Shown one piece after another: positions 1 through 32,256 of a DNA stretch of 32,256 nucleotides. The notes beneath the pieces were generated by a model. The model was not told the DNA's origin and did no database searches. It saw nothing but the letters and a program-made list of their open reading frames with translations. The translations under genes were made by a program, and so were the position numbers. Source of the DNA: Geoalkalibacter ferrihydriticus DSM 17813 (GTDB lineage Bacteria; Desulfobacterota; Desulfuromonadia; Desulfuromonadales; Geoalkalibacteraceae); assembly GCF_000820505.1 (NCBI RefSeq), contig NZ_JWJD01000001.1, positions 919,593-951,848 on the forward strand, in the 5' to 3' direction. Numbering within the stretch: position 1 is the stretch's first letter; each line of letters begins with the position of its first letter.

Positions 1-479
1 ACCTGATCAACGTGCACAGCAGCGATTTCCACATCACCCATCCCATCGCCGCGCGCACCAACCAGCAGTTGTGCGCCAGCTGCCATGAGCCGAGCTTTTG
101 CAGCGACTGCCACGGGGATTTCCGCGGCCGTTCGGGACGCGCCGGTGGGCCTTCCCACGCGCGTACCTTCGGCCTGGGCTTCAACGGCGACATCGACGCC
201 ATCCACGCCGGCATGACCGCCGGAACCAACTGCGACGCCTGCCACCTGCAGGGCTCGGTGGCCTCCAGTTTCCACGACTGGTCGGTGGATCACGCGCGCG
301 AGGCGCGCAGAAATCTCGCCACCTGCCAGGCCTGCCACCCCAGCGGCGATGTCTGTATCAGCTGCCACAGCGCCAAGGGCGGCGCGGTGGGCTTCAACCC
401 CCACGGCAAGGATTGGGATGATCGCAAGAACCGACTCGATAGAGCAAGCAACGGCAAAACCTGCAGAATTTGCCACTAG
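1..479 (+). CDS. Multiheme c-type cytochrome, 5' end outside window
   Basis: The reading frame is open to the left edge (L-I-N-V-H...), so the gene begins upstream; 158 residues are visible. They hold six CxxCH heme-attachment motifs (CASCH, CSDCH, CDACH, CQACH, CISCH, CRICH), about one per 26 residues, so this is a densely heme-packed electron carrier matured outside the cytoplasmic membrane. The protein ends exactly on the histidine of the last motif (CRICH then TAG), with no C-terminal tail. The next cytochrome gene starts 38 bases downstream on the same strand, so the two are probably one operon. A periplasmic or conduit-associated partner of the downstream lipoprotein is plausible, but the missing N-terminus hides its export signal and family. 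Cytochrome identity is certain; the exact family is unknown. Confidence 0.9.
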   Translation, partial: LINVHSSDFHITHPIAARTNQQLCASCHEPSFCSDCHGDFRGRSGRAGGPSHARTFGLGFNGDIDAIHAGMTAGTNCDACHLQGSVASSFHDWSVDHAREARRNLATCQACHPSGDVCISCHSAKGGAVGFNPHGKDWDDRKNRLDRASNGKTCRICH

Positions 480-517
480 AGGGATTTTCCCGCCACACAC
501 ACAGAGGAGGTAACACA

Positions 518-2827
518 ATGCAAACAAGGAAACTCGCTTTTCTCACCGCATTGCTGCTCAGCGCGGCAATGCTCTGGGGCTGCGGCAGCAGCGGGTCGGG
601 GGGGACGGATGTTCAGCCTATTGATCCGGCGGATGTGCAGACAGTTGGTATTTTCAACTGTTCGACCTGCCATGCCGGCGGGCCGCAGGTTGCCAAGTGG
701 CTGGATAGCAAGCATGCGGCGGGCAGCTATGGAGGTTCCACCGGAGCCTGCCTGGCTTGCCATGATCCCGATGGTGATGGCGCCGAAGTCATGCAGGCAT
801 TTGGCCTTGCCGGAACCAATGTCGTAGGTTGCGAAGCCTGTCACGGTGGTGGCAGCGCTCATCGCGGCTTAGGGCCTTTGCCCTTTCCGGAGCCGGGCGT
901 GGCTCAGTGCGCGCAGTGTCACACCGAACTGTCACCGCGTTTGGCAGGTCATCTTGCGAACAATCCATTTTCGAACCTGATTTCTGAGCGGTTTCTGGAT
1001 AGTCGCCATGCGGGAACGAACGTCAATACCCAGACTCGGGCCAATAGCTGCGCCGCCTGCCATAGCCATGAAGGCGCTGTGCTTTATTTGAATGCTATCG
1101 CACAGGATGGCTCCCGCGACCTGATGGTACGGAGTGGTGTTCTGGGGTTGGAAAGCCGGCTTACCGCTCTAGGAACTGCAACTGACCTTAGCGTAAAGAC
1201 CTGTACCTCCTGCCATGATGCCCATAGCGGTGAATTGTTGGGCCTGGGCGAGGTCATTGCCACACCGGCTGGGGCCACTAGCGGCACTGGTCCAGCACAA
1301 CGCACTGTTTTTTCTGCTGAATTCAATCTTTGCACCGCATGCCATCAGGTGAATCTTGATTTTGAGTTCGTCCCAGGCATTGGTTACAACGAGGGCGGCA
1401 TGTATGTCTACACCTTGGCCGACACCTATCACGCCGGTGAGACTTATGATGCCGATGCCAACAACTTTCACGCAGGCGGTGCGGTCAGGGTGCAGCGCTC
1501 AATTGTCGACACCCATTTCCAGGGACTGCTCAACAAAGAGATTTTCACTAACGCTGCCGACCTGCCTTTGTTTGCGATGTACGAAGAGGATGAGGACGGC
1601 CTGAATTACGTTGTCCCCGGTTACAATATCAACCCCGCCAGTGAAAATGCCTGTACTGCTTGCCATGACCCGCACAGCGCGAGCAAGTTCGGCGAGAATT
1701 TTCTGACAGACGCAGACAGCTTTTTCCAGGCTGTTGCCTATGCTCAGGGTGTTGGAGAAACCCACGGCAATTATATTTCTGACTCTTTCTCACGTGAGCA
1801 GTCGGCAAATAGCTGTACTCCTTGCCACACAGGCCGTCAATTGCCGAATGTGGTTAACGGGCTCAGCAGAGCTGACCTAGGCAGTGTACGCTGGAATCCT
1901 CTAGGCTGCGTGACCTGTCACCCGATGACTGAGATTGAGGGGCCGGCAACCGTTGCTGATACCGCACCACGCGAATTTGTCGCCAACTATGAGTTCGCGT
2001 TCAACAGCGGTGAGGTTGTTCCGGTTGAAGAACTTGGTAGAAACCAGGTTTGCTTCGAATGTCACAAAGGGCGCACACCTGGCGTGGATGTGTCGTCACT
2101 GCCCGAAGGCCCGACCAACCACTTCAACATTTCTTATCTGCACTACAGCCCCATTTTTGCGACATATTATGGGGATGAGTCGGGGATGGTGGCCACCTAT
2201 GAGGGCATTCTCGAAGGTGTGACCTACCGCGGTAAGAGCACCACCCACAGCGCCAACCCGGCGAATGATGTAGGCGGCGGGTTTACCTATGGAGTTGAAG
2301 GCGGTGCGACCTGTCTTGATTGCCATGACGTGCATACCAACAGCATCCGCGAGAGCAATCCGAACATTCGCAACGGCATCACCTGCGTGACCTGTCATGG
2401 CGAGGACTGGAACCAGCGTGCCGCCAAAGGCAATGTGACGGCCTTGGCAGATCTGCTGATTGACGTGGTTTATGACGAGCTGATGGCCACCGTCAACGCA
2501 GGGTTCAATGCCAATTTGACAGCGTTCCTGGACGCCCTTCATGCGGAACTCGATGAGGTTGTCGGTAAGGACATGGTCAAAAGCCGCATCAAAGAGCGCA
2601 CCATTGCGGGCGGTTGGCCGACCAGGGAACTGGCGCACGCGGTAACCACCTGGAAGGTTTTTTACTATGAAGATAGGGCTTCCTGGGCGCACAACCGCAA
2701 CTTTGCCTATCAGATGTTCCGCGATGCCATTGAAAGTCTGGGGGTTGAGTATCAAGACCCACCCGGATTTAACCTCGGCAGTTTCTCAAGTTGGACAAGC
2801 TTGGACAGGCCTGAACCGATCAATTAA
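518..2827 (+). CDS. 13-heme lipoprotein c-type cytochrome
   Basis: The protein has 769 residues. The start at 518 is chosen because AGAGGAGG lies just upstream and the product begins with a lipoprotein signal: basic MQTRK, a hydrophobic stretch, then LWGC with Cys22 as the lipidation site, followed by a Gly/Ser-rich linker. An in-frame start at 470 would overlap the previous gene and bury the signal. Thirteen CxxCH motifs run from Cys48 to about residue 630. The last ~130 residues are heme-free, look helical, and include WAHNRNFAYQMFRDAIESL, a pattern like the HN-x-x-Y/F-A helix near the end of several multiheme cytochromes. An outer-membrane location facing the cell surface or periplasm is expected from the lipoprotein signal. 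It resembles the large outer-membrane cytochromes of Geobacter relatives, but I cannot assign a named one. It follows another cytochrome gene by 38 bases. Confidence 0.92.
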   Translation: MQTRKLAFLTALLLSAAMLWGCGSSGSGGTDVQPIDPADVQTVGIFNCSTCHAGGPQVAKWLDSKHAAGSYGGSTGACLACHDPDGDGAEVMQAFGLAGTNVVGCEACHGGGSAHRGLGPLPFPEPGVAQCAQCHTELSPRLAGHLANNPFSNLISERFLDSRHAGTNVNTQTRANSCAACHSHEGAVLYLNAIAQDGSRDLMVRSGVLGLESRLTALGTATDLSVKTCTSCHDAHSGELLGLGEVIATPAGATSGTGPAQRTVFSAEFNLCTACHQVNLDFEFVPGIGYNEGGMYVYTLADTYHAGETYDADANNFHAGGAVRVQRSIVDTHFQGLLNKEIFTNAADLPLFAMYEEDEDGLNYVVPGYNINPASENACTACHDPHSASKFGENFLTDADSFFQAVAYAQGVGETHGNYISDSFSREQSANSCTPCHTGRQLPNVVNGLSRADLGSVRWNPLGCVTCHPMTEIEGPATVADTAPREFVANYEFAFNSGEVVPVEELGRNQVCFECHKGRTPGVDVSSLPEGPTNHFNISYLHYSPIFATYYGDESGMVATYEGILEGVTYRGKSTTHSANPANDVGGGFTYGVEGGATCLDCHDVHTNSIRESNPNIRNGITCVTCHGEDWNQRAAKGNVTALADLLIDVVYDELMATVNAGFNANLTAFLDALHAELDEVVGKDMVKSRIKERTIAGGWPTRELAHAVTTWKVFYYEDRASWAHNRNFAYQMFRDAIESLGVEYQDPPGFNLGSFSSWTSLDRPEPIN

Positions 2828-3554: not shown

Positions 3555-5807
3555 TTACCAGTGGCAAAGGCTACAGGTTTCGGCACGCTGGCCTTCGAAG
3601 TACTCGGCGTGATTTGCGTTGCCGAGCATATTTGCCGACATACTCAGGAAGTGCGCACGGTAGGTTTCGTTGTCATCCTGGTGGCAAGAGTAGCATACGG
3701 ATGCATAGGGTGAATTAACACCCTGGCCATCCAGGAAGAGGTCTTTGCCTTCGTTGGCAATGACGCCAAGACGTTTAGCATAATCAACCTCTTTATGGCT
3801 GTCGCCGACATGGCACGCTGTGCAGTCGGTCACCGTGCTGGGGTAGGTGACATAATCGTAGCCATGGTCTCTGCGGCGGTCGAACTTGCTGCGCTTTTCC
3901 CCGACGCCGTGGATGGCATGCACGATGTACATGAAATCAACCGTGCCCTGTTCCACACTGGCGTCGCGGCTGAGAGAGCCGGCGTTGTGGCAGGTGACGC
4001 ATGAGGTGACGCCAGAGGCGACATCGGCGTAGGTGCCGTGTCGGCCAATGGTGGCGTGGCAGGCCAAGCAGCTTTCGGTGGATACGATTTCGCGGCGGTT
4101 GCCAAGTTCCGCATCGCCCGCGCCTAGGATGAAGGTTTTCACGGCGCTGCTGGCGTTGATGCCTGACGGCCCACGTTCCACCACGGCAAAGCCGTTGCGT
4201 CCTTCGGATGCTGCCGCTGGAAGTGCAGGAAAGGTTGTGACCGCATAGGTGTTGTCGGTACCCTGGGCGGTATTCGTAGCGTTCGCAGTGGCCTGGAAGG
4301 GACGGCCCGCATCGCCGTTGCTGATGGCCCCGGACCCATCATTGGTCCAGTCGTCGCCATAGCCCCAGCCGATACCGAGGCGAACGGCGTCTTGGAGATA
4401 GGTGTCGCCGCCAGTGAAAAGGTTTTGGTAGTCACCGTCTTTTTGTACGCGCCAGGTTACCTGAGCGGCTTGGCCGGCGACGGCGTTTTCCACGCTGACA
4501 ATTTCCATGAGATAGCTGCGGGCCGTATCCAAAGCATCAATGCGCGGCGAAATGCCATGATATGTGTCGGCCGTCCATGTGCTATGGCAGTCGGCACAGT
4601 TATGGACGTCATCGTCGCCATGGGGGCCGCTGCCGACCAAACTCGGGTAAGCTTCCGCCAGAGTGTCACCAACATGACACGATGCGCATGTGAACACCGA
4701 ATGCGTTATGTTCCACTCCTGGCCATCCGCAGGCACAGCGCCCTTATGGCAGGCGGTGCAGTTTTGTGTGCCATTGACGCCACTCCCGGAGCGGCCGAAA
4801 AGCCAGTCGGGAAAGTTTGCGCCGCTGTAATCGGTGACGGCGATCATGTAGCCATCGATTCCGGCATGGATCTTGTGGACGATGCTCATCATGTCGGCAT
4901 GGGCCCAGCCATTGACCACGGATTCAGAGTTGTGGCTGTCATAGGTGTAGGCGTTGTGGCAGCTGGTGCACAGTTGCGGATCGTGGCGACGGTTGCTGTG
5001 CGCACTGAATGTTGTCTGGTCATTGCCGCGATCACCGTGGCAGTCCAGGCATGAAAGAAGCGTATCTGCGCTGATCTGTTGGGGGGCATCTTCAACTGCT
5101 ATCGGTGTGCCGTCACCGGTTACATAAGCAATGGCGGTGAATCGTTCGCCTTGGCGGCTGGTGACGCCGACGCGATAGACGGCGTCTTCATCCCAGTCAC
5201 CATTGGTGGCGATGCTAGTTAGAATTCCCTGAACAAACGCGTTGTAGGCAGTGTCAGGAGTGTCTGTGGGGGGAGGATTGTGGGTCCAGTAGGCGCCAGC
5301 GGTAAAGTCTATGTTGTTGCCACCATGGACGAAGGTATAGCTGAACGACCCATCAGGGTTTGCAGAAATAAAATTGGCACCTTCCACCCGCAGATTGCCG
5401 GCGCGAACCACATTCGTATCGCCGGTGGCATAAATCCGATTGCGCTGCAGCATGCTGATCCAGGAATTCTCAGCTTCAACCCATTTTGCAATGGTGAATT
5501 CGGCCTGCACGCGGCTGGGATCCGCCAAGCCATCGACTGTGAAGTCAAGGGTGAATTCACCGTTGTTAATTGTGATTTCTTCAACGGTTGCAGGAATGGG
5601 CGCGGTGATGCTAAGAGCGTGCGCGGGTACGTCAAATGCTTGCGGGATGCCAGGCCCGGGGAGAATGGTGGTCGCATCTTCGCCGGGTTCACCCTGCGGT
5701 CCTTGCGGCCCCATGGACCCATCATCGCCCGAGCAGCCGGCCAACGCCAGGCTGAGCGCGAAAAACGGGATCAGCAAATAGCGATTCAATGTCCAATACT
5801 TCTTCAT
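3555..5807 (-). CDS. Decaheme OmcA/MtrC-family outer-surface lipoprotein cytochrome
   Basis: The protein has 750 residues. Signal and lipobox: MKKYWTLNRY, hydrophobic core, LALAGC with Cys25 lipidated, then a short collagen-like linker GPQGPQGEPGEDA. Ten CxxCH motifs fall in two groups of five: Cys253, 280, 350, 374, 404, then 580, 603, 662, 705, 745. Heme-free regions at 50-250 and 409-579 precede each group. This beta/pentaheme/beta/pentaheme plan is that of Shewanella MtrC and OmcA, which pass electrons from an outer-membrane conduit to minerals, shuttles or electrodes. The final motif is CSLCH followed by one Trp. Unlike MtrC/OmcA, the middle heme-free region contains no cysteine, so the CX8C disulfide of those proteins is missing. 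No MtrA/MtrB-like conduit genes lie beside it. The start is supported by GGAGG seven bases upstream. It is transcribed alone, from a likely sigma-54 promoter at 6024-6039. Confidence 0.93.
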   Translation of the reverse strand: MKKYWTLNRYLLIPFFALSLALAGCSGDDGSMGPQGPQGEPGEDATTILPGPGIPQAFDVPAHALSITAPIPATVEEITINNGEFTLDFTVDGLADPSRVQAEFTIAKWVEAENSWISMLQRNRIYATGDTNVVRAGNLRVEGANFISANPDGSFSYTFVHGGNNIDFTAGAYWTHNPPPTDTPDTAYNAFVQGILTSIATNGDWDEDAVYRVGVTSRQGERFTAIAYVTGDGTPIAVEDAPQQISADTLLSCLDCHGDRGNDQTTFSAHSNRRHDPQLCTSCHNAYTYDSHNSESVVNGWAHADMMSIVHKIHAGIDGYMIAVTDYSGANFPDWLFGRSGSGVNGTQNCTACHKGAVPADGQEWNITHSVFTCASCHVGDTLAEAYPSLVGSGPHGDDDVHNCADCHSTWTADTYHGISPRIDALDTARSYLMEIVSVENAVAGQAAQVTWRVQKDGDYQNLFTGGDTYLQDAVRLGIGWGYGDDWTNDGSGAISNGDAGRPFQATANATNTAQGTDNTYAVTTFPALPAAASEGRNGFAVVERGPSGINASSAVKTFILGAGDAELGNRREIVSTESCLACHATIGRHGTYADVASGVTSCVTCHNAGSLSRDASVEQGTVDFMYIVHAIHGVGEKRSKFDRRRDHGYDYVTYPSTVTDCTACHVGDSHKEVDYAKRLGVIANEGKDLFLDGQGVNSPYASVCYSCHQDDNETYRAHFLSMSANMLGNANHAEYFEGQRAETCSLCHW

Positions 5808-24375: not shown

Positions 24376-26640
24376 TTAGAGACACACCCGCAGCACTTGG
24401 TTGAGATCGGTGATTCCCTGGAACACCTTATGGATGCCGTCCATGCGCAGAGTCGTCATGCCGTCGCGGATGGCCTGGTCGCGCAGCTCCTCGGCCATCA
24501 CGCCTTTTTTGATGCCGGCGCGGATCGCCTCGCTGGTCGTGAGCAGTTCGTGAATGGCGATGCGGCCGCTGTAGCCGGTCTGGTGGCAGTCGCGGCAACC
24601 CACGGCGCGCATCAGGGTGAGGTCTTCACTGTAGGCGGGCATCCCGCGGGCCGCGAACCATTCTTCACCGTAGGCATGCACCAGATTGTCGTATTCCGCG
24701 CGGTTCGGGGTATAGGGCGCGCGGCACTGCACGCACAGGCGCCGCGCCAGACGCTGGGCGAGAATGCCGAGCATGGCGTCGGCGAAGTTGTAGGGGTCCA
24801 TGCCCATCTCGATGAGGCGCACCACGGTCTCAGGGGCGCTGTTGGTGTGCAGGGTACTGAATACCAGATGGCCGGTCAGGGATGCTTCAATGGCGGTCTT
24901 CGCGGTTTCCGCGTCGCGCATTTCGCCGATCATGATGACATCGGGGTCGGCGCGCAGGAAGGAACGCAGCGCCTCCTTGAAACCGAAACCGATTTTCGCG
25001 TGTACCTGCACCTGGCGCAGTCCGCTCTGGGTGATTTCCACCGGGTCTTCCGCCGTCCAGATCTTGCGGTCGGGTTTGTTTATATGACCCAGGGCCGAGT
25101 GCAGGCTGGTGGTCTTGCCCGAACCGGTGGGACCGACGCACAGGATGATCCCGTAGGGCTTGGTTAGAATGCGCTCGAACTCTTCGATGTTGCTGTCGCT
25201 GAAGCCCATCTGATTCAGAGGCAGGGGTTTGGATGAGGCGAGGATGCGCAGCACCGCGTCTTCGTTGCCGCCTACCGTGGGGGTGATTTCGACGCGGTAT
25301 TCGATTTTTTTACCTTCATAGCGCAGCAGGATTTTTCCGCTTTGCGGACGGCGATGTTCCGCGATGTCGAGCCGCGACATGATCTTGACGCGGGCGATGA
25401 CCGCGTGACGATAGGCCGGGGAAATCTTGTGCACCACCTGGCAGACGCCGTCGATACGGTAGCGCACTCCCAGAGGCTGCTTGCCCAGGCCCGGCTCGAA
25501 ATGAATGTCGGAGACGCCCTTTTTGTACCCGTCGATGAGAATCTTATTGACCAGATTGATGATCTGCGAATCGGACTCATTGAACTGCGAATCCTCGCCC
25601 TCTTCATTCTCGACTTCCGCGGCCTCGGAAAGTTCGCCGATCAGGTCACGCACCTGGCTTTCGGTCTTGACGTAGAAACTCTCCAGAGCCTGGGTGATCT
25701 GTTCGCTGCACGCGACCACCAACTCGATCTGCAGATCGCTGGTGAAACGCAGATTGTCGCCGATGGTGGGATCCGTGGGCTGGGAGGTCGCCACCGTCAG
25801 TACCCGACCGCGCACCTCGACGGGCAGCACCCGCATGCGCACCGCCACTTCGCGGGGCAGAGCCTCCAGGGCATCGGGGCTCGGCTCGAGGTTTTCGAGA
25901 TCGATGAAACGCAGGCCGAATTTGGTCGCGAGGGCCGAAAGCAACTGCGTTTCGGTAATCAGGCCTTTTTCAATGAGCAGGGTGCCGATGCGCTTTTTCT
26001 TGCCCTTTTCCTGGGTGGACAAGGCTTCTTCGACCTGCTCGCGGGTCACCAGGCCGGCGGCGACAAGGATGTCGCCGACCCGTATATTCTTCGGGACTCG
26101 ACCCATGTCGCCGCGCACTGTATCGACTTCGCGGTCGATGGTGCTCTGGGGGATGTGCTGCTGCTCCGCGATAATCTCTCCGACCCGACGGGTGCGCAGT
26201 TTCTGCTGTTCGAGCAGGGTCAGGTTCATGGTCTGTTCGTCGATGAGACCCTGGTCGCGCAGGATATTGCCGATGGGCCGTTCCTGGGGCTGGGTGCGAA
26301 CGCCGTGAAAAGTGAAAAAAATGCTTTTGAAGGGGCTGTCGCGGTCAATGGGCAAGCCGTAAAAGCCCAGGGGATATTTTTCCCGGCCCATGACCTGAAC
26401 ACGGAATTTTTCTCCCGTGGCGGTTTCCACCTCCTCGGCGGGGTGCGCTCCGGCGTCGGATGCTGATGCGGCCTTACCGTGCAATTTGATGCAGCACAGA
26501 TCATACAATGGATAGGCCAGGCGCAGATCCTGATCGGGCAGCGTGATTTCGATTTCATTTTCGCGCGGTTGAAAAGGACGGGCGAGCCGCGCCGCGGTTT
26601 CGCCGCCGTCCATGAATGTCAGTGTCAGGTTTTGCTCCAT
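24376..26640 (-). CDS. GspE/PilB-family secretion or pilus assembly ATPase with extra N-terminal domain
   Basis: The protein has 754 residues. The first ~115 residues (FMDGGETAARLARPFQP..., ending FFTFHGVRTQ) form an extension absent from ordinary PilB. Residues 120-325 hold MshEN-like repeats (IGNILRDQGLI, VGDILVAAGLV, RIGTLLIEKGLI), a module that binds cyclic di-GMP in some relatives. The ATPase core has Walker A GPTGSGKTT (503-511), Walker B DPDVIMIGEMRD (565-576), His box HLVFSTLHTN, and a zinc-type tetracysteine Cys636/639/682/685. It should drive assembly of a type IV pilus or type II secretion pseudopilus from the cytoplasmic side of the membrane. No other pilus gene is nearby. GAGG precedes the start, and a likely sigma-54 promoter lies at 26740-26755. 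The CRDCH stretch is part of the zinc site, not a heme site. Confidence 0.93.
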   Translation of the reverse strand: MEQNLTLTFMDGGETAARLARPFQPRENEIEITLPDQDLRLAYPLYDLCCIKLHGKAASASDAGAHPAEEVETATGEKFRVQVMGREKYPLGFYGLPIDRDSPFKSIFFTFHGVRTQPQERPIGNILRDQGLIDEQTMNLTLLEQQKLRTRRVGEIIAEQQHIPQSTIDREVDTVRGDMGRVPKNIRVGDILVAAGLVTREQVEEALSTQEKGKKKRIGTLLIEKGLITETQLLSALATKFGLRFIDLENLEPSPDALEALPREVAVRMRVLPVEVRGRVLTVATSQPTDPTIGDNLRFTSDLQIELVVACSEQITQALESFYVKTESQVRDLIGELSEAAEVENEEGEDSQFNESDSQIINLVNKILIDGYKKGVSDIHFEPGLGKQPLGVRYRIDGVCQVVHKISPAYRHAVIARVKIMSRLDIAEHRRPQSGKILLRYEGKKIEYRVEITPTVGGNEDAVLRILASSKPLPLNQMGFSDSNIEEFERILTKPYGIILCVGPTGSGKTTSLHSALGHINKPDRKIWTAEDPVEITQSGLRQVQVHAKIGFGFKEALRSFLRADPDVIMIGEMRDAETAKTAIEASLTGHLVFSTLHTNSAPETVVRLIEMGMDPYNFADAMLGILAQRLARRLCVQCRAPYTPNRAEYDNLVHAYGEEWFAARGMPAYSEDLTLMRAVGCRDCHQTGYSGRIAIHELLTTSEAIRAGIKKGVMAEELRDQAIRDGMTTLRMDGIHKVFQGITDLNQVLRVCL

Positions 26641-26861: not shown

Positions 26862-27941
26862 TCAGCTGTTGGTGGTTGACGGGGCGATGCCGGCATATTC
26901 GAGAAAACTCTGGGGTGGGATGTAGACCGATTGCTCCGCCAGCAGCGCCGCGATTTCCCGCGGTCCGTAATAGCGGGTGTCGAGAGCCCTTCCGCGCAGC
27001 AGTTTAAAGCCGAATTGGGGGATGAAGGTGTTGTGTTTGATGGTTTGATCCAGGGTCAGACCCGCCACCACGAAAATGTTGCGGTCACTGCCATTGAAAA
27101 GATCTGTCAGATAAGCGGCCAGTTGGTGAAACTGACACCAGGTGTTGAGGTCGGCGATGCGGCGGTGGGGGTAGGGGGAGCTGACCGCATCGGGCAGATG
27201 TGGGAATAAGGACAATTCGAGCATTGTCAGGGGATCGCGGCTGCCGGTATCGAGAAGTTTGCGGAAACTGAAGGTTTGCGCATCGAGGAGGTTGCCGATA
27301 GCCGTGCGGGTGTCGGGCCAGCCGGCCAGAGATTCGGCGTGGCGCGCGGCAAAGGCCGGGTTGAGGCGAAAGAAATGACCATGGCCGCTCTCGCCCAGGG
27401 GCTCGCCGGAGACCAGGGCAGGCAGGTGCAGCATGATACGCGCCGTGGTTCCGGCGGCTTTGGGCAGCAGGTATTTGTAGGGGATGTCCAGCACCAGTTC
27501 TCCCGCACGGCGCTCCAGGGTGATCAGGTCCTCCGCACGCCGGTAGGCGCGCAGATAGCCGTCGAGAACCTGGAGCAGTTTGCCGCAGCAATGCGCCATC
27601 TTGCCGTGAACGCGCTGCACGACGCCGATTCCGTTGTGTTCGTGAGCGCCGAGGTGGCTGCCGCCGAGGATGACCAGGTCGCGCCCGTGTTCGGACGCCG
27701 GTCTTACTTTAGAGGGGTCGAGCAGGGCCCCGACCCGGCCGAGATTGAACACCGGACAGTCGAAAAAATAGCCGAACAGGGCTTTCTTGATCATCTGGGT
27801 TTCATCGGAGCACTGCCACACCGCCGGCAGGGTGCCGCTGAAGCCGTGCCTGTCGGCCAGGGAGCGCATGCGGCCGAAAAGATCCATCAGCTCCAGGGCG
27901 GGTTGGTCGAGAAGGTCTGCAGAAGGCGGAGCGATGGACAT
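26862..27941 (-). CDS. LCIB-like beta-carbonic-anhydrase-fold protein (probable)
   Basis: The protein has 359 residues from the start at 27941, supported by AAAGGA eight bases upstream; an open frame continues to 28169 but through a repeat. Several spaced motifs resemble algal LCIB/LCIC proteins, whose core is a beta-carbonic-anhydrase fold: Cys44-x-Asp46 (QCSDET), FNLGRVGAL at 65-73, LVILGGSHLGAHEHNGIGVV around His96, and HCCGKLLQVL with Cys118/Cys119. Cys44, His96 and Cys119 are spaced like a zinc site. The later NIFVVAGLTLDQ...HNTFIPQFGF resembles the closing strand region of the fold. The middle third (PYKYLLPKAAGTTARIML...) has no counterpart I recognise. It is soluble, with no signal or membrane segment. 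The alignment is from memory; enzyme activity is unproven, and conserved-but-inactive LCIB relatives exist. Confidence 0.5.
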   Translation of the reverse strand: MSIAPPSADLLDQPALELMDLFGRMRSLADRHGFSGTLPAVWQCSDETQMIKKALFGYFFDCPVFNLGRVGALLDPSKVRPASEHGRDLVILGGSHLGAHEHNGIGVVQRVHGKMAHCCGKLLQVLDGYLRAYRRAEDLITLERRAGELVLDIPYKYLLPKAAGTTARIMLHLPALVSGEPLGESGHGHFFRLNPAFAARHAESLAGWPDTRTAIGNLLDAQTFSFRKLLDTGSRDPLTMLELSLFPHLPDAVSSPYPHRRIADLNTWCQFHQLAAYLTDLFNGSDRNIFVVAGLTLDQTIKHNTFIPQFGFKLLRGRALDTRYYGPREIAALLAEQSVYIPPQSFLEYAGIAPSTTNS

Positions 27942-27973
27942 AGGCGACATCCTTTGGTTGAAGAATGTCCTAT

Positions 27974-28832: not shown

Positions 28833-28961
28833 TTGAAGTCATGCAGGTTTGATGATTTTAATCCCGGCGGGTCGCTCCAGAGCATGCAAGGCAGGAAAAC
28901 CAGGCGATTTTTCGCCCTGCGCGAATGCACGGAAGCGATACCGTGAAATTGCCGACACCTT

Positions 28962-28973
28962 GGCCATATGGCC
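28962..28973. promoter_or_regulatory. 12-base palindrome before the large cytochrome
   Basis: GGCCATATGGCC is a perfect palindrome about 70 bases upstream of the start codon, well placed for a dimeric regulator. No regulator can be named. Confidence 0.3.
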
Positions 28974-29041
28974 GAAATTGTTTCTCAAGAGGGCGGCGCC
29001 TGGATCCGGTGATCGGTTCGGCCGGCAGGAGGTCAGAAAAA

Positions 29042-32000
29042 ATGAATTTGGCTCACGGAAAACTTTTTTGGGGACTGTTGCTCGGACTTTGCTTGTTGGC
29101 GTCGCCGGGTCAGGCGACGGTGGTGCATAATTTCGATTGCAAGAACTGCCATAAAGTCGGGGTGAGCTTCACCGATCTGGGCCAGGGTAGCACGAATCTC
29201 TGCCTGCAATGCCACAAGGAAGGCGCCGGCTCCATCCTCATGCTCGACGGCAGCTACAAATCACCCGGCGGCCGCTTTGCTCCAGGCGATGCCAGCAATG
29301 CCATGGGTTCTTATCCGGACGGACTGGCCGAAGGCGCCCAGACCTCGCATATTTGGGCGAGCCCCGACGTCAACGCCGCCGCCGGTGCCCAGGCGCCCAG
29401 TGATCGACGCTTTTATGGGCGCTACGGCATCTCCACCGGCAAACTCACTTGTCAGCGTTGCCACGACCCCCACAGCCGCGATCCGGAAAACACCAAGATT
29501 CTACGCCTCGGCGCGGGCAGCCGCGACCAGATGTGCATCGAGTGCCACGCGCCCTGGGTGGTGGGCAGCGAGGACCGGGGCCTGCTCACCCATCCCACCG
29601 TGGAGAGCTATGCGGTGGTGGCGGCCGCCCAGCCCGACAAATACCGGTCCGTGGAAGATGTCGAGGCCTGGCCCGGCGACATCCAGCTGCTCGATAACGG
29701 CGGCGTGGGCTGCGCGTCCTGCCACGGCGTGCATTTCGCCGATTCCAGCTCCGAGACGCCCACCGCGCCGGGACAGGCCGGTGTCGGCGATGGCAAGCTG
29801 CTGCGCGGCGACGGACCCCAGTCGGCGGGGACCTATCCCCTGTGCCAGGCCTGCCATACTTACAAGCCTCACGGCAGCGCCGCAGAAGAAATCAGTTGCC
29901 TGGTGTGTCACAGCGGCCATTCCTACAACGCGGGCGAAGTCAATTATTTCGTGCTGCGTAGCCAGACGGAAACCCTGACCTACGGGCCGGTGGGCGGCCT
30001 GCGCTACGCAACGCTGCCCGACGTACACAGCGGCTCCTCGACCATCGCCGCGCAGTGGGCGGGCACTCCCGGGGCGGCAGACGGTTTCTGCGAGCGCTGC
30101 CACGGTGAATTGACCACCATGCCCAACAGTGCGCGCGGGCATATCGAAGGGGAAAACTGCCTGGCCTGCCACAACCACAATGCGGCGGGTATGGAGTTTT
30201 CCTTCGGCGCCAACTGCGCCGACTGCCATGGTTTTCCGCCGTCAGTCAATGTTGCGGGCGGCCCCGACGGCTATGCCTTCGTGGAGGGCGGGCACGACTA
30301 CGCCGCCGACCCCTATTACAAGGATGAAAGCCTCAGTGCCCACACCTCTCACGCCGGTTCTTCAAGTGGTTATGGTTTCACCTGCAATCTGTGCCACAAC
30401 GCCGACGATTTCGCCGCCACCCACAATCAGGGCAGCTTTCAGGATGTGTTTCTGACGGGTAATTCCTTTGACTCCCTGGTCACCGCAGGCGGCATTCTGA
30501 GCCCATCCTATGACCCCTCCGGAGCGGGTACCTGCAGCAACCTCTACTGCCACAGCAGCGGCGGCAAGCACAACCCAGCGGGCAAGACTCTCAGTGATTT
30601 CACCACGGTCAGCGTCTCCTGGGGCGGCGGCAAGGGCACCATCACCAGCTGCAACGCCTGCCACGGCAACGACGCGGCGAGCATGGACGGGCGCAATTCG
30701 AGCGCCCATCTCAAGCATCTGGCCGCGGGCTATGCCTGCAACGTCTGTCATGTAGCCACCGCCGCGAGCGCCATCGGTCTGGTGGATGGCGCCAAAGGCG
30801 CCACCCACGTCGACGGGGTGGTGGATGTGGTGTTTGACGGCGGTTATAACCTGGGCAACGCGCTGCTCGGCGCGGCGACCTATAACAGTGTCGATGGCAG
30901 CTGCGCGGTATTCTGCCATTCCGACGGCCAGGGCAACTACGCCACGCCGGAATGGGGCAATGCCGAAAGCGGTGCTTGCGGCAGCTGTCATGCCGTGGCC
31001 GGGGAAGATTTGAGCGGCAGCCATGCTGTGCACGTGAATGCGGAAGGCGCCAACATCGGCTGCGCGGCCTGTCACGGTGCAGGCGCCGACACGGGCGCCC
31101 ACGCCGGGCACGTCGACGGGGCGCTCACGGTCGATCATGAAACCTGCAACAGCTGCCACGGCGTGGAATCGCCGGAGATCATTCTGGTGTGGGGCAATGC
31201 CGAAAGTGCCGACTGCCTCACCTGCCACACCGGTGCGCAGACCACCGTATATACCGACCGCGACGGTGTGCAACGCACCGCTTCGGCCAAGGGCGTGTAT
31301 TTTTCCGCGGGCCACGGCGCCGCCGCCTTCGCTCAGGTGTGCAACGACTGCCACAGCTTCGAATTCGACCCCGCCCACATGGGCGCGGCCGACACCGCGC
31401 GCCTGCTTACTCTCGACGGCAAGGACTTCAGCAGCGACCCGAGCGGTTTCTGCGGCGTTTGTCACACCTTCGAAGCGCAGGTCCATTACGCCACCAGCGG
31501 CGCCAGCCACGACGCGTCGAGCTGCATCGCCTGCCATGATCCTCACGGTCAGAGCGCAAGCCTTGACGCCATGGTGCGCGCCGAGATCGGCGGGCGTCAG
31601 GTGGTGGGTTTTGCCGACCGCTACGAGCGGTCAAGTTACTATCTGGAGTTGCCCAACCAGGACGGCAACAATCAATACGGCATTTGTCAGGTTTGTCATG
31701 ACGCAGGCAGCGTCAATTATTTCAACCGCACGGTGGAGGCGCCGGCGCACTTTGCCGGAGAATGTCTCAGCTGTCACATGCACGACGGCGAGGAATTCGC
31801 CTTTGCACCCACGGGCTGCAATGGCTGTCACGGCGGCGGCAACAACGATCCGCCCACGGACAATTTCTGGCCCGACGGCGAGCTGCGCGACGGCTACAAT
31901 GTCGCAGATCGCGCAGGCTCCCACGCCCCCCATATCAACGCTATCGGACAGGCTCTTTCAGGGCTCAGCGACGAGGCCTGGGCCGCCTATGGCAACAAAC

Positions 32001-32256
32001 TGACCTACCAGAACGCCGCCTGCATCACCTGCCATCCCGATCCGGGCGGGCGCAACGCCTCGGGCGGTGCCCACTCAGAGCCTGTCGAGGGCCGCACCGA
32101 CGGCGTGGCCGACGTGCATGGCGACGTGTGGAACAACTCCCAGTTCACCGACCTGTACGGCAATGTCGATGTGACCGGCTTCTACAATCCGGTGATTCAG
32201 CGCTGCTCCAACATCGCCTGTCACAGCAACGGCGACTACACCTGGACCTGGTACGA
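29042..32256 (+). CDS. Very large secreted multiheme cytochrome with CxxxxCH motifs, 3' end outside window
   Basis: The frame is open from ATG 29042 to the right edge: 1071 complete codons with no stop. AGGAGG lies nine bases before the start. The N-terminus MNLAHGKLFWGLLLGLCLLA, with SPGQA after it, is an export signal with likely cleavage after Ala24; there is no lipobox. The visible part carries 24 CxxCH motifs, from CKNCH near residue 35 to CITCH, plus three longer-spaced candidates: CSNLYCH at Cys498, CAVFCH at Cys621 and CSNIACH at Cys1055. CxxxxCH followed about 40 residues later by CxxCH (CSNLYCH...CNACH) is the repeat named for Geobacter sulfurreducens proteins (GSu_C4xC__C2xCH). The phrase WGNAES recurs at 30953-30970 and about 31190-31207, before the CGSCH and CLTCH motifs, so internal duplication built part of the protein. 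It is probably periplasmic or extracellular in long-range electron transfer. The partner proteins are out of view. Confidence 0.93.
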   Translation, partial: MNLAHGKLFWGLLLGLCLLASPGQATVVHNFDCKNCHKVGVSFTDLGQGSTNLCLQCHKEGAGSILMLDGSYKSPGGRFAPGDASNAMGSYPDGLAEGAQTSHIWASPDVNAAAGAQAPSDRRFYGRYGISTGKLTCQRCHDPHSRDPENTKILRLGAGSRDQMCIECHAPWVVGSEDRGLLTHPTVESYAVVAAAQPDKYRSVEDVEAWPGDIQLLDNGGVGCASCHGVHFADSSSETPTAPGQAGVGDGKLLRGDGPQSAGTYPLCQACHTYKPHGSAAEEISCLVCHSGHSYNAGEVNYFVLRSQTETLTYGPVGGLRYATLPDVHSGSSTIAAQWAGTPGAADGFCERCHGELTTMPNSARGHIEGENCLACHNHNAAGMEFSFGANCADCHGFPPSVNVAGGPDGYAFVEGGHDYAADPYYKDESLSAHTSHAGSSSGYGFTCNLCHNADDFAATHNQGSFQDVFLTGNSFDSLVTAGGILSPSYDPSGAGTCSNLYCHSSGGKHNPAGKTLSDFTTVSVSWGGGKGTITSCNACHGNDAASMDGRNSSAHLKHLAAGYACNVCHVATAASAIGLVDGAKGATHVDGVVDVVFDGGYNLGNALLGAATYNSVDGSCAVFCHSDGQGNYATPEWGNAESGACGSCHAVAGEDLSGSHAVHVNAEGANIGCAACHGAGADTGAHAGHVDGALTVDHETCNSCHGVESPEIILVWGNAESADCLTCHTGAQTTVYTDRDGVQRTASAKGVYFSAGHGAAAFAQVCNDCHSFEFDPAHMGAADTARLLTLDGKDFSSDPSGFCGVCHTFEAQVHYATSGASHDASSCIACHDPHGQSASLDAMVRAEIGGRQVVGFADRYERSSYYLELPNQDGNNQYGICQVCHDAGSVNYFNRTVEAPAHFAGECLSCHMHDGEEFAFAPTGCNGCHGGGNNDPPTDNFWPDGELRDGYNVADRAGSHAPHINAIGQALSGLSDEAWAAYGNKLTYQNAACITCHPDPGGRNASGGAHSEPVEGRTDGVADVHGDVWNNSQFTDLYGNVDVTGFYNPVIQRCSNIACHSNGDYTWTWY

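Follow-up and report, generated by a model that had tools for sequence, protein, structure and literature searches.

A candidate divergent LCIB-type carbonic anhydrase with an inserted domain in Geoalkalibacter ferrihydriticus

The question whether a bacterial gene carrying scattered motifs of the algal LCIB proteins encodes a true LCIB homologue, and what such a protein might do outside photosynthesis, was addressed for one locus of Geoalkalibacter ferrihydriticus. The window, that is the whole stretch of 32,256 nucleotides analysed, contains a minus-strand frame from 27941 to 26862 with 359 open codons and an ATG start; a second ATG in the same frame, 9 nt before it, is a possible alternative start. 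The encoded protein (P0001) was found to carry all the motifs named in the original prediction, namely C44-S-D46, FNLGRVGAL at residues 65-73, G94-S-H96-L-G98-A, GIGVV at 104-108 and CCGK at 118-121. The gene and its immediate surroundings are as follows.

26862..27941, minus strand: gene for the LCIB-like protein P0001, 359 aa (open reading frame, homologues, profile, predicted beta-carbonic-anhydrase fold)
27951..27955, minus strand: AAAGG, possible ribosome-binding site, 9 nt 5' of the ATG at 27941 (read from the sequence)
169 nt upstream of the P0001 gene: Gly_transporter gene, a neighbour in the window
24376-26640, minus strand: GspE/PilB-like ATPase gene, 221 nt downstream of the P0001 gene; the protein has an MshEN domain and a long N-terminal region

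For this ATPase the scores against PilB and GspE stayed below the curated thresholds. An operon around the P0001 gene was also considered and found unsupported, the promoter and terminator scan of the window staying at shuffle level. Elsewhere in the window MtrC/MtrF-type and c7 cytochrome domains were found, and a plus-strand frame (28862-32254) that holds 24 CXXCH motifs and runs for 1131 codons without a stop reaches its right end; judged by its motifs, this frame probably encodes a very large multihaem cytochrome. Because of these domains and this frame, the surroundings are likely those of a metal reducer. Two multihaem cytochromes with MtrC/MtrF-type domains lie at 470-2827 (plus strand) and 3555-5807 (minus strand). 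The minus-strand open reading frames 29501-30229 and 30362-31546, opposite the 24-CXXCH frame, gave no Pfam match and are probably spurious.

The distribution of homologues confirmed that the frame is a real gene. Matches at E<=0.001 were obtained in 40 of 98 related genomes, the own genome included, covering 24 of 48 genera; 36 of them were near full length and 4 partial or in pieces, and the full-length homologues from other genomes in this set shared 48-71% identity with P0001. Sixty columns were invariant across the 31 homologues of the narrow alignment (31 of 32, the truncated L034 being left out), including C44, S45, D46, H96, C118 and C119. The contig scan with P0001 alone as query revealed no relative, and with the P0001 family alignment it revealed 44 named loci, whose titles refer to Desulfuromonadales (Desulfuromonas, Desulfuromusa, Malonomonas, Desulfuromonadaceae, Geobacteraceae), to unranked Deltaproteobacteria and to one Desulfobacteraceae. 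The phylum sample gave family matches in 11 of 395 genomes, comprising the own genome, one from the same order and nine from other classes (E 3.5e-41 to 5.4e-16), eight of which were aligned and showed 24-29% identity to P0001. Among plasmids, neither P0001 nor a fragment of the diatom protein PtLCIB4 found a match. Two copies of the LCIB-like gene occur in some genomes, as L041 and L061 in one MAG and L018 and L033 in G072.

The relation to LCIB was analysed at the sequence level. P0001 alone gave no Pfam match even at E<=10, neither to LCIB_C_CA (PF18599) nor to Pro_CA (PF00484), and as a single query it found nothing useful in Pfam, NCBIfam, PHROGs or the PDB. The own genome also showed no match to the LCIB_C_CA profile at E<=10, the level at which 5 of 14 control genomes matched. 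Weak matches to this profile at E<=1 were given by 15 of the 31 homologues (best E 1.4e-4); the best scores, 21.7 bits for L033 and 22.0 bits for G465, the highest among the relatives, lay under the curated cut-off of 25 bits, which no scanned relative attained. Over the 98 genomes the profile gave only five matches at E<=0.01, all on P0001 homologues, and none in the 14 control genomes. Among the 395 phylum genomes, 4 of the 11 sub-cut-off matches fell on P0001 relatives and 7 elsewhere, so these weak matches are by themselves not specific and prove little.

The profiles built from the P0001 family were compared with known LCIB sequences in turn. The narrow 31-row profile reached PtLCIB4 in the PDB at E 0.29 only. 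The broad profile of 21 rows, made of 13 closer and 8 divergent homologues (the truncated L090 and L092, the same gene as L091, being left out), matched six PDB sequences of the LCIB family with E values from 5.3e-6 to 2e-4, and the hit after these was unrelated at E 0.65. Proteins over the Pfam cut-off, here called true bacterial LCIB, were present in 9 of the 395 phylum genomes (L118-L126). The alignment of eight of them (L125 left out) gave a profile matching CrLCIC at E 4e-56 and CrLCIB at 3e-55, and the profile-profile comparison with P0001 relatives yielded E 8.8e-7 and a probability of 91% for the broad set, and E 5e-4 and 31% for the narrow set. If the motifs were alike by convergence, with no homology to LCIB, the empty single-sequence searches, the poor value of the narrow profile and the weak LCIB_C_CA matches elsewhere in the phylum would be expected; the broader profile, the profile-profile comparison and the predicted fold all agree on LCIB, which makes convergence very improbable and the resemblance a matter of true homology.

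Membership of the curated LCIB_C_CA family was not borne out. P0001 stays under the cut-off, with no match at the loosest level either, and it is for this reason assigned, on sequence comparison, to a sister branch outside that family. The proposal that the family is hereby extended to a likely metal-reducing lineage stood as regards a divergent homologue; the true LCIB proteins in nine genomes were already in the phylum. The P0001 group is thus a divergent variant of LCIB, the LCIB family itself being already known there. Bacterial LCIB as such is also not new, since theta-type enzymes, a class to which LCIB is also assigned, have been described in a cyanobacterium according to a review. No title on an LCIB protein in Desulfuromonadales stood among the literature matches listed, which take in only a minority of subscription papers, so that this absence carries little weight.

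The predicted structure was in accordance with the sequence profiles. The AlphaFold model of P0001 had a pLDDT of 89.7 and a pTM of 0.89, and the Foldseek matches of this model at E<=0.001 were eight PDB chains, every one an LCIB-family protein. In the structure comparison the model aligned with 5b5y (PtLCIB4) and 6kfs at Z 20.9 over 221-224 residues, followed by LCIC (Z 17.4), LCIB (Z 17.2) and the best classical beta-carbonic anhydrase (Z 10.4). The expectation of a fold like that of beta-carbonic anhydrase was thereby supported, LCIB structures heading the list and beta-carbonic anhydrases coming next (Z about 10), and P0001 is predicted by the model to have the LCIB variant of this fold. 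An iota-carbonic-anhydrase identity was also considered and dropped, the fold found in the predicted model being that of beta-carbonic anhydrase.

The central third of the protein, described as unfamiliar in the original prediction, turned out to be an inserted domain.

27234..27530, minus strand: inserted domain, residues about 138-236, absent from the eight aligned true LCIB proteins

Owing to this insert P0001 departs from LCIB_C_CA, in which one compact domain of about 220 residues is expected. The divergent relatives have a corresponding stretch, in which F224 and F226 do not vary, and by the alignments the insert marks the P0001 branch. Modelled alone it reached a pLDDT of 92.3; against the PDB it gave no Foldseek match at E<=0.001, and in a second structure comparison Z did not exceed 2.5, which is no proof of a new fold. 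It may be guessed that the insert governs assembly or partner binding. It could also reshape access to the pocket, and this would suit a hydrolase of the beta-carbonic-anhydrase superfamily acting on another small substrate; examples are carbonyl sulfide and carbon disulfide, compounds that might be encountered by sulfur-reducing anaerobes. The model does align with the hydrolases of COS (Z 7.9) and CS2 (Z 7.5), but in the same list these values lie below the ordinary beta-carbonic anhydrases and far below LCIB, and the gene neighbours that recur in relatives encode a carbonic anhydrase and a SulP transporter. Such a hydrolase is consequently considered improbable.

The residues of the putative active site were located by alignment and conservation, as listed below.

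27810..27812, minus strand: Cys44 codon, predicted zinc ligand (equivalent to PtLCIB4 C46; alignment, conservation)
27804..27806, minus strand: Asp46 codon of C-S-D-E, active-site Asp (alignment, conservation)
27687..27689, minus strand: His85 codon, opposite CrLCIB H162 and PtLCIB4 H88 in one profile-profile alignment
27654..27656, minus strand: His96 codon, predicted zinc ligand (equivalent to PtLCIB4 H102; alignment, conservation)
27612..27614, minus strand: Arg110 codon, opposite CrLCIB R194 (alignments, conservation)
27585..27587, minus strand: Cys119 codon, predicted zinc ligand (equivalent to PtLCIB4 C126; alignment, conservation)

The proposed zinc-site residues Cys44, His96 and Cys119 aligned with C46, H102 and C126 of PtLCIB4, which a figure legend of PMC6352938 names as its zinc ligands; the PtLCIB4 numbering was checked by a residue count that took the H88A and S47R mutants as reference points. 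C44, D46, E47, H96, R110 and C119 were identical in all 73 covering rows of a set of 74 distinct rows, mostly close relatives, in which the divergent rows carry most of the weight. H85 was kept in 72 of 72 covering rows and S45 in 71 of 73, with Pro in the other two. Since C118 is replaced by Ser in 7 of 73 rows, the conservation points to C119 and not C118 as the ligand. By alignment and residue count, H162 of CrLCIB is the His of 'SHSP' and R194 the Arg of 'SRPG'. R110 stood opposite R194 in the broad-profile alignment and in the broad profile-profile alignment. H85 stood opposite the LCIB His in one of four alignments (the narrow profile-profile one), was three residues off in the HMMER alignments and was not opposite in the broad profile-profile alignment; it likely pairs with the active-site His of LCIB. 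The Ser at position 45 is shared with PtLCIB4, the residue being Arg in CrLCIB, CrLCIC and the aligned true bacterial LCIB, and the S47R mutant of PtLCIB4 was presumably made to copy the algal form.

Taken together, the sequence comparisons and the predicted model are best explained if P0001 is a divergent LCIB-type zinc carbonic anhydrase engaged in bicarbonate handling, a reading given a probability of roughly two in three. P0001 would be a zinc enzyme, probably soluble, that within the beta-carbonic-anhydrase superfamily belongs to the LCIB branch. Cys44, His96 and Cys119 would hold Zn2+ with water or hydroxide, and Asp46, His85 and Arg110 would shape the pocket near the subunit interface, as described for LCIB proteins. 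The protein would interconvert CO2 and HCO3- in the cytoplasm and could serve bicarbonate supply or retention, or pH balance, in CO2-releasing anaerobes. P0001 may thus be a carbonic anhydrase overlooked by current family databases, which suggests that genomes may hold carbonic anhydrases missed by standard profiles, in this case in anaerobes whose CO2 release is probably large.

The gene neighbourhoods of the relatives were analysed for the bearing they have on this role. Neighbours of the beta-carbonic-anhydrase and SulP kinds were sought with the L045 proteins as BLAST queries (E 1e-10, then 1e-4), a search from which distant ones may escape. A beta-carbonic-anhydrase gene was found upstream on the same strand at 14 of the 44 named loci. 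The gap was 4-58 nt in 12 of these pairs and 320 nt at L044, and one gene lay between at L068; the Pro_CA domain was confirmed in the neighbours at L044, L045, L049, L068 and L069. As the beta-carbonic anhydrase of L045 shares only 39% identity with that of L044 and 36% with that of L068, the pairings with the LCIB-like gene seem to be separate ones. The remaining 30 named loci, 7 of them with less than 400 nt of upstream sequence, showed no beta-carbonic anhydrase, nor did the nine divergent loci L098-L106 searched by BLAST with the L045 protein, of which L101 and L105 have little flank. A SulP transporter gene lay at most 2.4 kb away in 6 of the 44 named loci, on the same strand in five, and at the divergent L102 it followed 131 nt downstream in convergent orientation; the family assignment was confirmed on representatives. 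A quick tree of 59 rows (43 of the 44 named loci, 8 of the 9 divergent ones, 7 of 10 further G loci and the window; L081, a fragment, and L101 were left out) placed the beta-carbonic-anhydrase label in clusters, mostly in one Desulfuromusa-Malonomonas clade. The label required at least three changes without the seven short loci and four with them; these may be gains or losses, and three could be one gain and two losses.

A third kind of neighbour is a protein with a helix-turn-helix and a PTS EIIA-2-like part, found near LCIB-like genes at L045:3775-4509, L104:7698-8387 and L106:5836-6522, and also close by in L048, L049, L050, L056, L074 and L081. The gene order at L045 is HTH-EIIA protein, SulP, beta-carbonic anhydrase and LCIB-like protein; at L104 and L106 the HTH_17 and PTS_EIIA_2 protein lies 3' on the same strand with gaps of 65 and 28 nt. 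It is possibly a regulator of the cluster.

A role in bicarbonate or pH balance fits these data because classical beta-carbonic anhydrase and SulP adjoin the LCIB-like gene in some relatives, and the pair of SulP and beta-carbonic anhydrase is known as a predicted bicarbonate system (PMC6458275). Against this role stand the window itself, with neither a beta-carbonic anhydrase nor a SulP gene beside the P0001 gene, and the 30 loci without a beta-carbonic anhydrase. In the own genome the one classical beta-carbonic anhydrase and the SulP gene sit on contigs other than that of the window, and as an enzyme of this kind is already present, the function of P0001 could be redundant or different. The catalytic reading is further opposed by LCIB-family proteins with a good zinc site that are reported inactive in PMC5876011, where the inactivity of algal LCIB and LCIC is put down to a widened intersubunit cleft with disordered His162/161 and Arg194/193. 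P0001 might accordingly be a zinc-binding, non-catalytic LCIB relative, acting as a CO2/HCO3- barrier, a sensor, or a scaffold partner of the neighbouring beta-carbonic anhydrase. The presence of the classical enzyme in the own genome and its pairing with the LCIB-like gene in relatives would agree with this, as would the barrier role proposed in the same text for the structurally intact algal proteins. It is nevertheless held rather unlikely, since the six active-site residues are kept in all covering rows, even at 24-29% identity, and Ser45 is that of PtLCIB4, reported active, and not the Arg of CrLCIB and CrLCIC.

The reading of P0001 as a carbonic anhydrase can be carried further, though only tentatively. 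The P0001 class, with SulP, classical beta-carbonic anhydrase and the HTH-EIIA regulator, might form an inorganic-carbon module in non-photosynthetic, CO2-producing anaerobes, in which separate, unannotated LCIB-type carbonic anhydrases would use the insert to dock or gate partners. If this were true, algal LCIB would have arisen as one offshoot of a more ancient bacterial group that works outside carbon fixation.

The comparison with known systems summarizes what P0001 shares and where it departs. Classical beta-carbonic anhydrases carry the motifs C-x-D-x-R and H-x2-C. P0001 has its predicted overall fold in common with these Pro_CA proteins and differs in its C44-S-D46-E-T48, with Thr48 in place of Arg, and in the 22 residues between H96 and C119. 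The true bacterial LCIB proteins are homologous to residues 17-128 of P0001, with the site Cys, Asp, His, Arg and Cys in register and the His85 counterpart in register in the narrow profile-profile alignment; unlike P0001 they have frames of 237-280 codons, no insert, C-R-D-E and scores over the Pfam cut-off. The can2-sulP cluster of Acidithiobacillus ferrooxidans resembles the loci of P0001 relatives in having SulP beside a beta-carbonic anhydrase, with predicted bicarbonate handling; it belongs to an autotroph, and the available portion of PMC6458275 mentions no LCIB-like gene.

The closest known structure is that of PtLCIB4 (PDB 5b5y), which aligned with the predicted model over 221 residues with an rmsd of 2.9 and shares the C-S-D-E, G-S-H-x-G and C-C-G motifs and, by alignment, the zinc ligands. 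It differs in an identity of only about 18%, in its 237-241 residues in the structure against 359, and in its host, a photosynthetic diatom. On activity the reviews are not in full agreement: PtLCIB3 and PtLCIB4 are apparently active according to PMC9614477, and PMC5876011 reports three homologues of similar structure that lack activity. Chlamydomonas LCIB and LCIC (PDB 5k5w, 5b5x) are like P0001 in its predicted fold (Z about 17), its predicted zinc site, the Arg position and likely the His position; they carry C-R-D-E and are reported inactive, whereas the P0001 family carries C-S-D-E. For algal LCIB, PMC9614477 states that in vitro measurements have not yielded a quantified carbonic anhydrase activity, yet knockouts fail to grow in ambient CO2. 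The working of algal LCIB is thus unsettled, and because the bacterial group combines a complete predicted active site with the diatom-type Ser, the rule that separates active from inactive LCIB proteins would become testable in a simple bacterial system.
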